A stretch of DNA of 64,000 nucleotides from positions 1 to 64,000 of the forward strand of contig NZ_LT906446.1 in NCBI RefSeq assembly GCF_900187035.1, read 5' to 3'. Each line of letters starts with the position of its first letter. The first letter of the stretch is position 1. This DNA is from Megamonas hypermegale. Its GTDB lineage: Bacteria > Bacillota > Negativicutes > Selenomonadales > Selenomonadaceae. Of the stretch, positions 3,800 through 9,420 are shown one piece after another. The translations under genes were made by a program, and so were the position numbers. A model generated the notes under the pieces. It worked only from the letters and a program-made list of their open reading frames with translations. It was not told the origin of the DNA and searched no databases.

Positions 3800-4393
3800 T
3801 CATTCATAGTAAATATTGCAATCAAGGTATATATCATCTATTTGTTCACAATTAGTATATTGCCATATTTTGCAAATGCGATTGGGATATTTAAGTTTAA
3901 AGCTGTTTTCATGGTAATATTGTGCTGTCCAAATAGGCACATAATCTGCCAATAGGTTTAAGTCTATGATATTGATTAGCCAGTTGTAGGAACTATATAA
4001 ACCTACATAATTATAATTGAGTTCATTTAATCGGTTTATGAAGTTGCCAATCATATAAGCTACATTAATATTATATTTGAGCATGGATATATCTTCGGCA
4101 TCATACCAAATGCCAAGTGGTGGATTTTGCCCATTTAAATATGTTTTTATTTGCATATCTACCCAGTTTGCTTCATTAATAGCTTCATCAATTGTTGCGG
4201 CATGAGCATAATAATATATTCCATAAGGTAGATTGTAAGCTACGGCGTTATTTACATGAGTTATGAACATATCATCTAAATGATAATACTCACCTATTTT
4301 AATGATAACGCCTTTTATATTGGCTCGTTTTAGTGCTTGCCAGTTTAAGTTTTCTTGCCAAGCGGAAATATCTACTACTTTAAAATTTGACAT
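3800..4393 (-). CDS. GH25 family lysozyme (muramidase)
   Basis: The 197-residue protein is one GH25 domain with no obvious binding repeats. Visible family motifs are VVDISAWQ with Asp8, KIGEYY, YGIYYYAHA, the acidic strand end WYDAED (Asp98 and Glu100, expected catalytic pair), VGLYSSYNWL, IWTAQY and KIWQYT. GH25 enzymes cut the MurNAc-GlcNAc beta-1,4 bond of peptidoglycan. There is no signal peptide, as in phage endolysins that need a holin. It has a strong AAGGAGTG ribosome site. It is transcribed away from the small regulator and the sigma/YvrJ cassette. No phage structural genes or integrase are nearby, so a free-standing cell-wall enzyme or a domesticated lysis module are both possible. 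Confidence 0.85.
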   Translation of the reverse strand: MSNFKVVDISAWQENLNWQALKRANIKGVIIKIGEYYHLDDMFITHVNNAVAYNLPYGIYYYAHAATIDEAINEANWVDMQIKTYLNGQNPPLGIWYDAEDISMLKYNINVAYMIGNFINRLNELNYNYVGLYSSYNWLINIIDLNLLADYVPIWTAQYYHENSFKLKYPNRICKIWQYTNCEQIDDIYLDCNIYYE

Positions 4394-4489
4394 ATAATCA
4401 CTCCTTTATTTTTCTACTTGCATTAGATGGCTGAAAAATAAACCTTTTGTAGTGATTTTTAAAAATTTTAGCGTTTTTGTTAAAATTTA

Positions 4490-4499
4490 CGATATATCG
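4490..4499. promoter_or_regulatory. Short palindrome upstream of the small regulator
   Basis: The perfect palindrome CGATATATCG lies about 25 bp upstream of a TATAAT at 4524-4529 that could be the -10 of the Cro/CI-type gene. Such a site could be an autoregulatory operator, which is inference. No good -35 is seen at the usual distance. Confidence 0.35.
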
Positions 4500-4564
4500 C
4501 ATACATCTATTTTTTATTTAGAGTATAATGTAGTTAATTTGATAAGGAAGATGAGGTGGTCATC

Positions 4565-4822
4565 GTGCCATTTATAAAGGCAGTGGATTGTAGAATTTTA
4601 GAGTTATGTAGAAGTAACCATTTGAGTATAAATGGTTTGGCAAACAGAGCAGGAATGCCACCTTCAACTGTAGCTAGTATTTTAAATGAAAAGAGTCGAA
4701 ATCCTGGAGAACTTACGATTTTTAAGATTTGCATAGGTTTTGGCATAAGTATGGCGCAATTTTATGCATCAGAATTATTTAATGTCGAAAATATAGATTT
4801 GGAAAAAGTACATAAAGATTAA
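4565..4822 (+). CDS. Cro/CI (XRE)-type small DNA-binding protein
   Basis: An 85-residue protein with one helix-turn-helix over most of its length (SINGLANRAGMPPSTVASIL is the helix pair). It is probably a repressor or activator of nearby genes. I chose GTG at 4565 because GAGGTGG at 4553-4559 is a good ribosome site 6 bp upstream. The in-frame GTG at 4556 overlaps that site, though it has its own AAGGA at 4544-4548, so the start is not certain. It diverges from the muramidase gene and precedes the DUF2922/DUF1659/sigma cassette; it may control either. The target is unknown. Confidence 0.75.
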   Translation: MPFIKAVDCRILELCRSNHLSINGLANRAGMPPSTVASILNEKSRNPGELTIFKICIGFGISMAQFYASELFNVENIDLEKVHKD

Positions 4823-4846
4823 ATTCATAACTGCACACATAGCGAA

Positions 4847-4888
4847 AAACAAACTATTATGTAATTTTGGATAATAGTTTGTTTTTTT
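4847..4888 (+). terminator. Rho-independent terminator after the small regulator
   Basis: A 14-bp stem (AAACAAACTATTAT with ATAATAGTTTGTTT) closes a short loop and ends in seven T. It separates the regulator from the DUF2922 cassette, so the cassette should have its own promoter. Confidence 0.8.
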
Positions 4889-4970
4889 TATGCACTGGAA
4901 AAAATTTTAGATATTAGGTTGAAATTTGGGTATGAACTTGCAAGTAGATAAGTGTAAGGGAGTGATAAAG

Positions 4971-5066
4971 ATGAAAAGACGGCGGCAGATAAGTTATTTA
5001 ATTGAGTCGATTGAAATAGGGTTTAAGAAAAGGAGCGATATTAAATGGCGGATACACGTAAATTGA
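4971..5066 (+). CDS. Possible small basic peptide, 31 residues
   Basis: A short reading frame starts at ATG 4971 with AAGGGAG about 9 bp upstream and ends 22 bp inside the DUF2922 gene. The peptide (starting MKRRRQISYLIESIE) is basic and amphipathic. The overlap with the next start suggests a leader coupled to DUF2922 translation, or a small protein of the cassette. It is too short to recognise, and chance cannot be excluded. Confidence 0.3.
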   Translation: MKRRRQISYLIESIEIGFKKRSDIKWRIHVN

Positions 5067-5263
5067 CTATGGTTTTTAGTTTGGATAATGGTGATGATTT
5101 TAAATATAATTTAGCAGATCCAAAAGATGATTTAACTAAGGCACAGGTTGATGAAGCTATGCAGGCAATGATTGATAACAATGCTATCTTAAAAGATGGA
5201 CATGGCGCAGCAACTATAAAAGAAGCGTATATCACAACTACTACACAGACTGTTTTAGAATAA
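5045..5263 (+). CDS. DUF2922 family small protein
   Basis: A 72-residue protein matching the pattern of DUF2922: a short beta strand start (KLTMVFSLDNG), a DPKDDLT turn and the helix VDEAMQAMIDNNAI, then a strand ending near the C-terminus. No function is established for the family. There is no signal peptide or membrane segment. A clear AAGGAG lies 9 bp upstream. It is followed by a DUF1659 gene, a sigma-like factor and a YvrJ gene; this set recurs together in Firmicutes, which suggests one shared process. Confidence 0.8.
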   Translation: MADTRKLTMVFSLDNGDDFKYNLADPKDDLTKAQVDEAMQAMIDNNAILKDGHGAATIKEAYITTTTQTVLE

Positions 5264-5287
5264 TTTAATTGATTTGGAGGTTTTATC

Positions 5288-5509
5288 ATGGCAGTTAAGA
5301 AAAATGTGGAATGCAATATTGTTATTAAAGTGCAGACAGGAACAACTACAACGGGCAAACCAAGCTATGCAAGTCGTAGTTTTGGCGATATAAATCCAGA
5401 AATTTCTGATGATAATGTACTCACTATTGGTCAAAAATTATCTGGTTTGCAAAAATACACTTTAGGCAGTGTAAATCGTGAAGATTTAGCAGAAATTGCT
5501 CAAGCGTAA
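5288..5509 (+). CDS. DUF1659 family small protein
   Basis: A 73-residue protein with the DUF1659 look: a basic start, two strands around GKPSYASRSFGDINPEISDD and a final segment LSGLQKYTLGSVNREDLAE. The family has no known function. It begins 24 bp after the DUF2922 stop with TTTGGAGG as ribosome site, so the two are co-translated from one message. Its size and fold outline parallel DUF2922, and the two may act as a pair; that is inference. Confidence 0.8.
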   Translation: MAVKKNVECNIVIKVQTGTTTTGKPSYASRSFGDINPEISDDNVLTIGQKLSGLQKYTLGSVNREDLAEIAQA

Positions 5510-5573
5510 GTTGTTTTAAAGGGGGTGCAATGCATCCCCTATTTTATAATAAATAAAGAAAGAGGGTTTTCGT

Positions 5574-6128
5574 ATGGAACCTGAATTGATTAGTAGAGCC
5601 CAAGCTCATGATGAAGAAGCTATTATACTTTTGATGGATAAGTATAAGGGATTGTTACATAAGGCGGCAAACCAAAATCATTTGAGAAGTATTAAAGATG
5701 AAGCGTATAGTGAGGCATGCTTGGGTTTTTATGAGGCGATAATGACTTATGATATGAGCTTGGGTATTCCATTTGCTGGCTTTGCTAAATCAAAGGTTTA
5801 TGCTAAAGTACATAGTTTATTTAGAAAGTATTTGTGCATTTGGCAAAATGAGCTTTTGGCTTGTAATAAAGAAGATGATGATGAAAATGAGTATATGGAT
5901 TTATTTGAAGACAATATTAATATAGAAGAAAAAGTTATGTATAAACTGGATTTACAGGAAATAATAGATGAATTATCTTTTAAACAGCGATTGATTTTTG
6001 AGGAAATAGTATTAAAGGGAAATAATATGACGCAGACTGCGAAAAAGTTTAATATATCGGTGCAAGCTGTCAGTAAGACATATAAAAAGATGATAAGAGT
6101 GATTTTAAAATATCTACAAAAGGAGTGA
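5574..6128 (+). CDS. Sigma-70-like RNA polymerase factor
   Basis: The 184-residue protein has a region 2-like N-terminal half (LLMDKYKGLLHKAAN, YSEACLGFYEAIMTYD, FAGFAKSKVYAKVHSLFRKY). An acidic linker near residues 100-117 follows, then a region 4-like helix-turn-helix (LSFKQRLIFEEIVLKG, MTQTAKKFNISVQAVSKTYK). It lacks regions 1 and 3, as do small alternative sigma factors of the ECF or UviA/TcdR types. Its place between DUF1659 and YvrJ recalls the B. subtilis sigO/yvrJ neighbourhood. It probably drives a small regulon, possibly including the muramidase. No anti-sigma gene is recognisable beside it. The YvrJ ribosome site lies inside its last codons. Confidence 0.78.
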   Translation: MEPELISRAQAHDEEAIILLMDKYKGLLHKAANQNHLRSIKDEAYSEACLGFYEAIMTYDMSLGIPFAGFAKSKVYAKVHSLFRKYLCIWQNELLACNKEDDDENEYMDLFEDNINIEEKVMYKLDLQEIIDELSFKQRLIFEEIVLKGNNMTQTAKKFNISVQAVSKTYKKMIRVILKYLQKE

Positions 6129-6133
6129 GTTTG

Positions 6134-6283
6134 ATGGAATATTTATTACAGAGCATGGCAAACTATGGTTTTCCGATGGTGATAGCGGTATTTTTATTAG
6201 TGCGAATGGATAGGCGATTGGCTGAATTAGACAGTGGTATACGTGATTTAACTGAAGCCATAAAACAAAAGGGAAGCCTATAA
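6134..6283 (+). CDS. YvrJ family membrane peptide, 49 residues
   Basis: This short gene encodes one N-terminal membrane helix (YGFPMVIAVFLLVRMDRRL) and a charged amphipathic tail that ends QKGSL. The NYGFP...LLVRMDRRL pattern matches the YvrJ family. AGGAG at 6121-6125, inside the stop region of the sigma gene, lies 8 bp before the ATG, so translation is coupled. One membrane helix with a charged tail is also the plan of small holin-like or export-helper proteins. The muramidase nearby lacks a signal peptide, so a role in release is conceivable, but this is untested. Confidence 0.75.
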   Translation: MEYLLQSMANYGFPMVIAVFLLVRMDRRLAELDSGIRDLTEAIKQKGSL

Positions 6284-6342
6284 TAGTAATAGAAATAACA
6301 ATGTAAAATTAAAGGATTTTTAATGAGCTATTAAGAATATAA

Positions 6343-6351
6343 TGATATAAT
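6343..6351 (+). promoter_or_regulatory. Extended -10 promoter for galU (candidate)
   Basis: TGATATAAT at 6343-6351 is a perfect extended -10, about 40 bp before the galU start. A second TATAAT lies at 6338-6343. No convincing -35 is present, which extended -10 promoters tolerate. Confidence 0.45.
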
Positions 6352-6397
6352 ATTAACGCAAAGTAATTATATTAATTTTATCTAGGAGTGGATGTTT

Positions 6398-7279
6398 ATG
6401 AAACGTATTAGAAAAGCGGTTATTCCAGCTGCTGGTTTTGGTACGCGATTTTTGCCAGCGACTAAGGCTACACCGAAAGAAATGTTACCGATTGTAGATA
6501 AACCTACAATTCAATATATAGTGGAAGAAGCGTTGGCAAGTGGTATCGAGGATATCTTGATTATTAGCGGTCATGCTAAGCGTGCTATTGAAGACCACTT
6601 CGACAGCACACCTATTTTGGAAGAGAATTTAAAGGCAAAAGGCAAGACTGAATTATTGAAAATGGTACAAGAAATTTCTGAAATTAATGTACATTACATT
6701 CGTCAAAAACATATGCGCGGACTTGGCGATGCTATTTTATGCGCACGTGCTTTTGTCGATAATGAACCATTTGCTGTACTTTTAGGCGATGATGTCGTTT
6801 ACAATCCAAAACCACAGCCACCAGCATTAAAACAGTTGATGGATATGTACAGTCAAACTGGTGCAACGATTTTAGGCTGTCAAAAAGTGCCGAAAGAAAA
6901 AGTATCTTCTTATGGTATTGTAGCAGGTGAGCCTACTATTAATGAGCAGTTGATGAAAGTCAGCGATATGATAGAAAAGCCAAGCATTGAAGAGGCTCCT
7001 AGTCAGATGGCTGTACTCGGTAGATATATAATCACACCTGATGTATTTGAAGTGCTCCAGAATACAAAACCTGGTAAAGGCGGAGAAATACAGCTTACAG
7101 ATGCACTTAAAGTCATGGCAAAACGTGAAAATGTATATGCTTATAACTTCACTGGCAAGCGCTATGATGTGGGCGATAAATTGGGATTTTTGAAAGCTAC
7201 AGTGGAATTTGCATTGCGCCGTGATGACTTATCAGCAGATTTTTCTAGCTATTTAAAGGATATCACTAAAAACTTATAA
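6398..7279 (+). CDS. galU: UTP-glucose-1-phosphate uridylyltransferase
   Basis: GalU makes UDP-glucose from UTP and glucose-1-phosphate, feeding LPS and exopolysaccharide sugars. The 293-residue protein has the nucleotidyltransferase start KAVIPAAGFGTRFLPATKA with KEMLPIVDKPTIQYIVEEA, the GDD motif in LLGDDVVYN and EKPS further on, at normal family length. I chose ATG 6398 because AGGAG at 6384-6388 is 9 bp away; the ATG at 6392 is only 3 bp from it. It stands alone between the cassette and a terminator. Its glucose-1-phosphate substrate is shared with glgC further along. Confidence 0.95.
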   Translation: MKRIRKAVIPAAGFGTRFLPATKATPKEMLPIVDKPTIQYIVEEALASGIEDILIISGHAKRAIEDHFDSTPILEENLKAKGKTELLKMVQEISEINVHYIRQKHMRGLGDAILCARAFVDNEPFAVLLGDDVVYNPKPQPPALKQLMDMYSQTGATILGCQKVPKEKVSSYGIVAGEPTINEQLMKVSDMIEKPSIEEAPSQMAVLGRYIITPDVFEVLQNTKPGKGGEIQLTDALKVMAKRENVYAYNFTGKRYDVGDKLGFLKATVEFALRRDDLSADFSSYLKDITKNL

Positions 7280-7335: not shown

Positions 7336-7481
7336 GAAAATAACCATAGTTTTAATAGTTTGTGATATAGTATATATGTAGTATAAAAATCTGATAATGA
7401 GGTTTAATAGTGATTACAAACACTTCTAGACATTTGCGATTAAATATTTTATCCCATTATTAAATGGAAAGGAGTGCTAGT

Positions 7482-7700
7482 ATGTCCATAAAATACATAA
7501 TTGCTCAAATCCGTCATGAAAAAAACATGACTCAAAAACAACTTGCTAAAAAAGCAGGTATTAGTACAGCTATGATTAGTTTTATAGAAAATGATAAACG
7601 ACAACCGACTTTTTATGTGATTGCACTGATAGCTAAAGCTTTAGACGTCACGGTTGATGAATTAGTAGTTATAAAAGATACACATCGTTTTTTTAAATAA
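7482..7700 (+). CDS. Small Cro/CI (XRE)-type regulator
   Basis: A 72-residue protein that is almost entirely one helix-turn-helix (KNMTQKQLAKKAGISTAMIS then FIENDKRQPTF) with a short C-terminal tail. ATG 7482 is the right start: AAAGGAG at 7468-7474 is 7 bp before it, while the upstream in-frame ATG at 7464 would run through that site. It stands alone, with terminators on both sides, between galU and the porin gene. It may act on its own promoter or on a distant target. A possible promoter (TTGTGA, 16 bp, TATAAA at 7360-7387) precedes it. Confidence 0.8.
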   Translation: MSIKYIIAQIRHEKNMTQKQLAKKAGISTAMISFIENDKRQPTFYVIALIAKALDVTVDELVVIKDTHRFFK

Positions 7701-8118: not shown

Positions 8119-9420
8119 ATGTCTAAAAAAACTCTTGTTTCTGCAATTACTGCCGCTCTCGTAGTTGGCGCTGCTAGCACAACTTTTGCTGCTGCAAATC
8201 CTTTCAGCGATGTTCCTGCTGATAGCTGGGCATATGACGCTGTATCTACTCTTGCTGCTGATGGCGTAATCGATGGTTACCCAGATGGCACTTACAAAGG
8301 CCAAAACACAATGACTCGTTATGAAATGGCTCAGATCGTAGCTCGTGCAATGGCTAAAACTGATATCGAAAAAGCAGATAAAGCTCTCGTTGACAAATTA
8401 GCTGCTGAATTCGCTGAAGAACTCGATAACCTCGGTGTTCGCGTTGCTGACCTCGAAAAGAAATCCGACAACGTTAAATGGACTGGCGAATTAAGATATC
8501 GTTATTATGATGAAAAACATGATGCTGATGCAGATACAAAATATAACAAAGTTATGTTCCGTCTCACTCCACAGGCTTACATCGGTAACTCTGGTTGGGT
8601 TGCAAATGCTCGTATCAACTATTTAATGGATGTTTCCAGCGATGATAATGCTTACACTGCTGATCAGACTGATGATAACGATGCTGCTGTTGACCAGGCA
8701 TATGTTGAAGGACCTCTCGGTGCTGCAACTGTACAGGCTGGTCGTTTACCAGTATTCACTGCACAAGGTATGTTATTCGATGATCGTATCTCCGGTGCTC
8801 AGGTAGCTTTTGGTGATACATTCAAAACTACTTTAGCAGCTGGTCGTTATAGCGAAGATAGCCATAGCACTTCTACTAAAACTACAAATGGCAATGCTAA
8901 AGACATGACTGCTGAATACTATGGTATCCAATTCGATTGGCAGGCAACTGATAAAATGGCAGTTAATGCTGGTTACACTCAGTTTACTGGTATTGATAGC
9001 CTTAATCCAGATGCTAAAGATGCAAGCAAATTTGTTGGCTTAAATGATGATAGCCTTGGCATTTGGTACCTCGGCGGTAGCTATGCATTCAATGACAGCG
9101 TAAAACTCGTTGGTGAATATGCACAGTCCGACGCTGATGCTTATGAAAAAGCTGGTATCGTAGAAGTACAGTACAAAGGTTCCGATGTTGCTGATCCTGG
9201 TTCTTGGGGCGCTTATGCTGGTTACCGTCATCTCGGTAACAACGTTGCAGTTGCTTCCACTTATGATGATGCTTCCAGCGGACAAAAAGGTTATGTAGTA
9301 GGTGCTTCCTATGTTCCTGCTGAAAATATCCTTGCTACAATCGAATACTTCGATGGTAAAGATTTAGTACAAGACGCTGATGCAAGCAAATTCTTCGGTC
9401 AGGTTGAATTCTTCTTCTGA
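8119..9420 (+). CDS. SLH-domain outer-membrane porin, OmpM type
   Basis: The 433-residue protein has a signal peptide (cleavage after TTFA near residue 24). One S-layer homology domain follows at residues 28-75 (FSDVPADSWAYDAV, DGYPDGTY, MTRYEMAQIVARAM), then a short helical stretch to about residue 115, then a beta-barrel with alternating strands ending in EFFF. A terminal Phe is the usual signal for barrel insertion. In Negativicutes such proteins bind pyruvylated or polyamine-modified peptidoglycan through the SLH domain and hold the outer membrane to the wall. Codons are richer in C (CTC, ATC, TTC) than in the neighbours, a sign of very high expression. ATG 8119 is chosen because GAGGAGG precedes it by 9 bp; the upstream TTG 8101 overlaps that site. 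It is monocistronic. Confidence 0.92.
   Translation: MSKKTLVSAITAALVVGAASTTFAAANPFSDVPADSWAYDAVSTLAADGVIDGYPDGTYKGQNTMTRYEMAQIVARAMAKTDIEKADKALVDKLAAEFAEELDNLGVRVADLEKKSDNVKWTGELRYRYYDEKHDADADTKYNKVMFRLTPQAYIGNSGWVANARINYLMDVSSDDNAYTADQTDDNDAAVDQAYVEGPLGAATVQAGRLPVFTAQGMLFDDRISGAQVAFGDTFKTTLAAGRYSEDSHSTSTKTTNGNAKDMTAEYYGIQFDWQATDKMAVNAGYTQFTGIDSLNPDAKDASKFVGLNDDSLGIWYLGGSYAFNDSVKLVGEYAQSDADAYEKAGIVEVQYKGSDVADPGSWGAYAGYRHLGNNVAVASTYDDASSGQKGYVVGASYVPAENILATIEYFDGKDLVQDADASKFFGQVEFFF

Follow-up and report, generated by a model that had tools for sequence, protein, structure and literature searches.

The window analysed here comprises the first 64,000 nucleotides of the 2.23 Mb single-contig genome of Megamonas hypermegale, a gut bacterium of the class Negativicutes, and carries a small operon for a DUF2922 protein, a DUF1659 protein, a sigma-70 family factor and a YvrJ protein that is divergent to a GH25 muramidase gene. 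We propose, at roughly even odds (about 0.5), that these genes form a chromosomal, self-regulated and activator-driven cassette of the holin/endolysin type. This reading is built on features taken from the sequence: linkage of the families across the phylum, a promoter-like element common to the muramidase and the operon, wall hydrolases devoid of signal sequences, assignment of YvrJ to a holin family and the presence of sigma or ComK-like genes as neighbours. From these we infer a pore function, lysis or opening of the wall, a role for the DUF pair and a triggering signal.

The operon lies on the plus strand in the order DUF2922, DUF1659, sigma factor and YvrJ, with intergenic gaps of 5–64 bp; DUF2922 before DUF1659 is an unusual order, as DUF1659 comes first in most genomes. 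The DUF2922 protein (5045–5263; 72 amino acids (aa)) matches PF11148 (E 1e-19), its best named match being a protein of a Megamonas metagenome-assembled genome (46% identity), and the DUF1659 protein (5288–5509; 73 aa) matches PF07872 (E 9.8e-20); neither has a signal sequence. The sigma factor (5574–6128; 184 aa) matches TIGR02937 over its cut-off (E 3.1e-13) and HTH_16 at its cut-off, and YvrJ (6134–6283; 49 aa), which has one membrane helix and a polar segment after it, matches PF12841 (E 4.7e-14) and, in PHROGs, the ‘holin’ family phrog_4898 (E 5.5e-4). On the minus strand, the muramidase gene (3800–4393; 197 aa) matches PF01183 (E 2.3e-21) and the endolysin family phrog_291 (E 1.8e-31), and its product has, by N-terminal hydropathy, no signal peptide, transmembrane segment or hydrophobic N-terminal segment. 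The sixth gene (plus strand, from 4556 or 4565 to 4822) encodes an XRE/Cro-CI type helix-turn-helix (HTH_3) protein of ~85 aa (PF01381, E 1.9e-6). All six were confirmed by Pfam, NCBIfam or PHROGs profiles and recur in unchanged order in a congeneric genome (G299, locus L139; the window genome is G000), which bears out the original prediction, made from the letters alone, of two DUF proteins, a sigma factor and YvrJ in one operon beside a signal-less muramidase and an XRE regulator. Differences between the two genomes at codon positions 1/2/3 number 28/13/62 in GH25 (84% aa identity), 15/11/29 in XRE (71%), 11/10/28 in DUF2922, 19/8/34 in DUF1659, 70/54/94 in the sigma gene and 16/11/25 in YvrJ; given this preponderance of third-position changes and the conserved order, we regard the six open reading frames (ORFs) as real genes.

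The upstream regions of the muramidase and the operon have in common a bipartite element, GGTTKA-N16-TGCAAGTA, with equal spacing. It reads GGTTTA-N16-TGCAAGTA at 4415–4444 on the minus strand, ~22 bases upstream of the muramidase start, and GGTTGA-N16-TGCAAGTA at 4917–4946 on the plus strand before the operon (0 mismatches in each case); the former recurs with the same spacing at 8138–8167 of L139 and the latter is kept at 7625–7654. Genome-wide matches, judged from pattern hits, include only two 0-mismatch sites in G299 (before GH25 and before DUF2922) and, in the window genome, the same two plus one that is intragenic, and every 1-mismatch site in either genome is intragenic; outside coding sequence, therefore, each genome has no site with up to one mismatch other than the pair upstream of GH25 and DUF2922. 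With up to one mismatch allowed, the chance expectation is 0.01 sites per 13-kb G299 locus and 0.07 per 64-kb window. A spacer of 16 bases is easier to reconcile with a sigma promoter than with a palindromic site for a repressor. A longer pattern derived from the operon alone found only its own site and was uninformative, and a by-eye search for a shared promoter motif in a pair of Selenomonadaceae loci (L044/L141) gave no clear result.

Linkage of the families was surveyed in 299 genomes of the phylum, with Thermotoga maritima and Bacillus subtilis as controls. DUF1659 occurs in 148 genomes and DUF2922 in 147, all of them within those 148; YvrJ occurs in 122. Among 79 DUF1659 genes in examined loci, 78 are accompanied on the same strand by a DUF2922 gene at most 700 bp away, and 57 by YvrJ at most 1.5 kb away, usually as the next gene after the DUF pair. 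Fisher tests, which ignore phylogeny, gave p values of 2e-34 for DUF1659 with YvrJ and 7e-41 for DUF1659 with a ComK-like family described below. Some version of the cassette occurs in roughly half of the species sampled in the phylum, and the families whose co-occurrence the original prediction had left to be surveyed proved to be linked, not scattered. The DUF pair is present in the Thermotoga control, and in B. subtilis YvrJ was matched and neither DUF family was. For the pattern-based locus search, alignments of diverse members were too variable and a four-sequence alignment was used. Two genomes of one family (G181 and G206) have 4–8 DUF1659/DUF2922 matches each and lie outside the YvrJ-positive set; their copies at L077–L080 adjoin a recurring protein of ~320 aa.

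Hydrolases beside cassettes come from four unrelated families (Amidase_2, Amidase_3, M15 and GH25). Cassette loci yielded 28 hydrolase or holin matches, 27 of them no more than 720 bp from the cassette; the exception is a fragment of 44 residues at a distance of 6.6 kb. A hydrophobic N-terminal segment is absent from every hydrolase found near a cassette or a sigma gene. In two Selenomonadaceae loci a Phage_holin_4_1 protein is encoded directly upstream of DUF1659, and in another locus of that family (L145) the sigma gene is directly followed by Amidase_3, with the DUF genes absent nearby. Because signal-less hydrolases recur next to cassettes and the promoter-like element is shared, we count the muramidase as part of the unit. 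YvrJ itself appears holin-like, given that 30 of 31 members match phrog_4898; tblastn revealed no close phage relative and weak matches only, among them a holin-annotated Bacillus phage protein (31% identity, E 0.5). The earlier idea of a release system is partly borne out, in a changed form, with the muramidase in the unit and YvrJ as its holin-like member, and without the DUF proteins as exported cargo.

As to the DUF pair, the lack of signal sequences, the small compact folds predicted for both proteins and the regulatory nature of the nearest experimental precedent, described next, speak against export. In Staphylococcus aureus the small proteins SroA and SroB are induced by the sigma factor SigS, SroA raises sigS messenger RNA and its overexpression alters ~200 transcripts (preprint PMC13192611). 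The NCBIfam SroA model (NF049869) matches the window DUF1659 with E 0.0013 and 18.6 bits, far under the curated cut-off of 80 bits; it also matches three other DUF1659 members and, in the whole window genome, only this gene, and no NCBIfam model matched DUF2922. On the basis of this precedent and weak match, we favour an intracellular partner of nucleic acid or polymerase over exported cargo. AlphaFold2 models of both proteins have a beta-beta-alpha-beta arrangement (mean predicted local distance difference test scores of 84 for DUF1659 and 81 for DUF2922). In VIA-align, phi29 p6, a DNA-organising protein with a fold that its authors call novel (PMC10899789), tops both lists with weak scores that fall in the range of common arrangements and tie with unrelated rows (Z 5.5, root-mean-square deviation 2.7 and 58 aligned residues for DUF1659; Z 4.5, 3.0 and 61 for DUF2922); p56 and T7 Gp2 appear in lower rows of both lists and YkzG in that of DUF1659. 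Foldseek returned nothing significant for either model, and sequence searches of the DUF profiles against Protein Data Bank chains gave chance-level matches only. A Foldseek likeness of DUF2922 to the uracil-DNA glycosylase inhibitor p56 was set aside as too weak to use, and the near-neutral net charge of DUF2922 (median −1) does not suggest a DNA mimic. The profiles of the two families align collinearly but weakly (probability 20%), and common ancestry is therefore not claimed.

The same observations admit a regulatory feedback module without a pore, in which the DUF proteins would regulate the sigma factor or ComK homologue, YvrJ would be a membrane anchor or an anti-sigma-like sensor and the hydrolase would be one wall-remodelling output. 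It can draw on the SroA/SroB precedent, on the transcription of B. subtilis yvrJ by SigO–RsoA, to whose regulon it belongs (PMC8103513), on the weak resemblances to DNA-binding p6 and to the RNA-polymerase-binding Gp2 and YkzG, and on DUF pairs that are seen without YvrJ or a hydrolase. However, its SroA link lies well below threshold and does not extend to DUF2922, and it leaves the recurrence of signal-less endolysin-type hydrolases from four families unexplained; we regard it as possible rather than probable.

The activators are of two kinds. The window sigma factor carries regions 2 and 4 on one chain and spans positions 2–165 of TIGR02937. The profiles that it matched are general or other sigma-70 ones, which do not place it in the TcdR/UviA/BotR group. 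A sigma gene was located up to 600 bp from the cassette in 18 hits and overlaps or abuts it in Sporomusa and relatives; the sigma sequences are highly divergent (17–31% identity to the window sigma). The other recurring neighbour is a protein of ~190 aa, of which the first four members tested had no Pfam match, and which belongs to a family of Clostridia and Negativicutes that is homologous to the competence regulator ComK over nearly its full length. The ComK profile PF06338 exceeds its 22.3-bit cut-off in three genomes outside the Bacilli (G115, G079 and G005), in each exactly beside the cassette, and the protein at L160 scores 24.3 bits; most members fall under the cut-off. Conversely, a model built without Bacilli ComK aligns Bacilli ComK over nearly its full length (E 9.4e-7). 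The ComK-like family occurs in 117 of the 299 genomes, 111 of which have DUF1659, and its gene lies within 1 kb of the cassette in 24 cassette hits. In 13 loci comF is no more than 4 kb from the cassette, and in 8 loci recD2 is no more than 650 bp from it. Sporomusa and its relatives among the Negativicutes (L099–L101, L144, L149, L152, L157 and L158) keep a conserved order of the sigma gene with genes for an ABC-F-like ATPase, recD2 and comF, and most of these loci have a ComK-like gene nearby; three that lack the DUF genes keep the sigma and ComK-like genes. In L047, a locus of the same class as Megamonas, the sigma gene beside DUF2922 (6218–6819, minus strand) falls into two ORFs that overlap, one of 110 aa for the HTH_16 half and one of 90 aa for the region-4 half, for which a sequencing frameshift is possible.

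ComK, comF and recD2 suggest a competence link in other genomes, which we keep as a rival or an extension of our proposal. As a rival it would be a competence (K-state) module, in which a competence-regulator activator drives a cassette that opens the wall or protects DNA during uptake or release. In the window genome, however, the A7 profile that matched the 117 other genomes found no ComK-like gene (E up to 10), and inspection of the promoter-element matches with at most one mismatch revealed no com gene, so a competence regulon is not claimed for Megamonas. In addition, the proximity of comF and recD2 could be inherited synteny, and Thermotoga maritima, outside the phylum surveyed for the ComK-like family, has the DUF pair; we consider this alternative distinctly unlikely. 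Toxin or bacteriocin release in the manner of TcdR/UviA, through a TcdE/UviB-like holin, which the similar layout of specialised sigma factor and holin-like protein and the Phage_holin_4_1 protein in two Selenomonadaceae operons might recall, is very improbable, given that neither the ORFs next to the inspected cassettes nor the window’s first 12 kb included a recognisable toxin or bacteriocin gene and that the shared element in the window serves the muramidase and the operon only.

For the holin/endolysin-type cassette that we favour, the following sequence of events can be envisioned. A signal would free the sigma factor (elsewhere, the ComK homologue of other genomes), and the freed activator would drive transcription of both the muramidase and its own operon, in a positive feedback loop. 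YvrJ may then let the cytoplasmic hydrolase reach the wall, leading to lysis of a few cells or to a brief local opening, while DUF1659 and DUF2922 may pair into a small complex in the cytoplasm that either binds RNA polymerase or nucleic acid or sets the timing of the switch. The XRE protein may act as a repressor.

Several points weigh against this scenario. YvrJ is missing in 38 of the 148 DUF1659-positive genomes (about a quarter) and a recognised hydrolase is lacking beside most cassette loci, and for these reasons neither pore nor hydrolase can be obligatory. Cassette neighbours served as seeds for the hydrolase search models, and unseeded families could therefore be missed. The promoter pattern was defined from the two sites themselves, and recognition of it by the operon’s own sigma factor is our presumption, as another factor could serve. 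The holin label of YvrJ is a PHROG annotation, and we know of no lytic role for YvrJ in B. subtilis.

An origin as a phage or prophage was rejected, in line with the earlier view that this is not an ordinary prophage: neither DUF1659 nor DUF2922 had a match in the phage collections INPHARED and IMG/VR, and no phage structural genes were seen among the ORFs of the window’s first 12 kb, the part that was scanned. A plasmid-borne copy occurs in Paraclostridium bifermentans, in which the DUF1659–DUF2922–YvrJ trio accompanies Amidase_3 on the 19-kb plasmid pHD0315_2-6 (L192, 4400–5146); larger plasmids of this species also carry DUF1659.

Further features of the Megamonas locus were read from its sequence. 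A terminator-like hairpin with a T-run (about 4850–4889, plus strand), kept in G299, marks the boundary between the XRE gene and the operon and probably closes a separate XRE transcript. A short ORF before DUF2922 (4971–5066, plus strand; 31 aa), uncertain and judged from a comparison of two sequences, is possibly a leader peptide; it has a good ribosome-binding site and begins MKRRR in the window and MNKKRR-stop in G299 (L139). A second, stronger XRE-type gene (7464–7700, plus strand; PF01381, E 2.1e-17) sits between a nucleotidyltransferase (galU-like) gene and the S-layer/porin-like gene.

What the survey establishes is that DUF1659, DUF2922 and YvrJ, small families whose functions are unknown or barely known, travel together, accompanied by a dedicated activator and in many cases by a wall hydrolase; the unit thereby gains a concrete, testable function. 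There is almost no published literature on the cassette, and the library searched had none on ComK in Clostridia and Negativicutes, for which a ComK branch outside the Bacilli would provide a candidate regulator. In a bolder form, which we put forward tentatively and think rather unlikely to hold, DUF1659–DUF2922–YvrJ would be the core of a widespread, undescribed programmed wall-opening system of Bacillota, under the control of dedicated sigma factors or an unrecognised ComK branch outside the Bacilli, with the DUF pair as a two-component partner that binds DNA or RNA polymerase, and would tie a competence-like state to lysis or DNA release.

Comparison with known systems reveals partial likenesses. 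The ~190-aa neighbours resemble ComK over nearly their full length, yet they are very divergent, mostly under the Pfam cut-off and absent from the window genome. SigS–SroA/SroB likewise has a sigma factor in control of two small proteins with feedback on it, of which SroA weakly matches DUF1659; in contrast to our cassette, its description (PMC13192611) names no holin-like protein or hydrolase. In B. subtilis, yvrJ also goes with a specialised sigma factor, and in the window YvrJ shares an operon with one; SigO–RsoA is a split two-protein sigma, whereas the window sigma is one chain, and the split gene at L047 is reminiscent of that two-subunit form. Phage holin/endolysin cassettes and TcdE/UviB release systems share the combination of a holin-annotated small membrane protein and a signal-less hydrolase that appear to be co-regulated. 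Unlike phage lysis cassettes, the cassette described here is based on DUF1659 and DUF2922, families absent from INPHARED and IMG/VR, and it is chromosomal, widespread and equipped with its own sigma or ComK-type activator.

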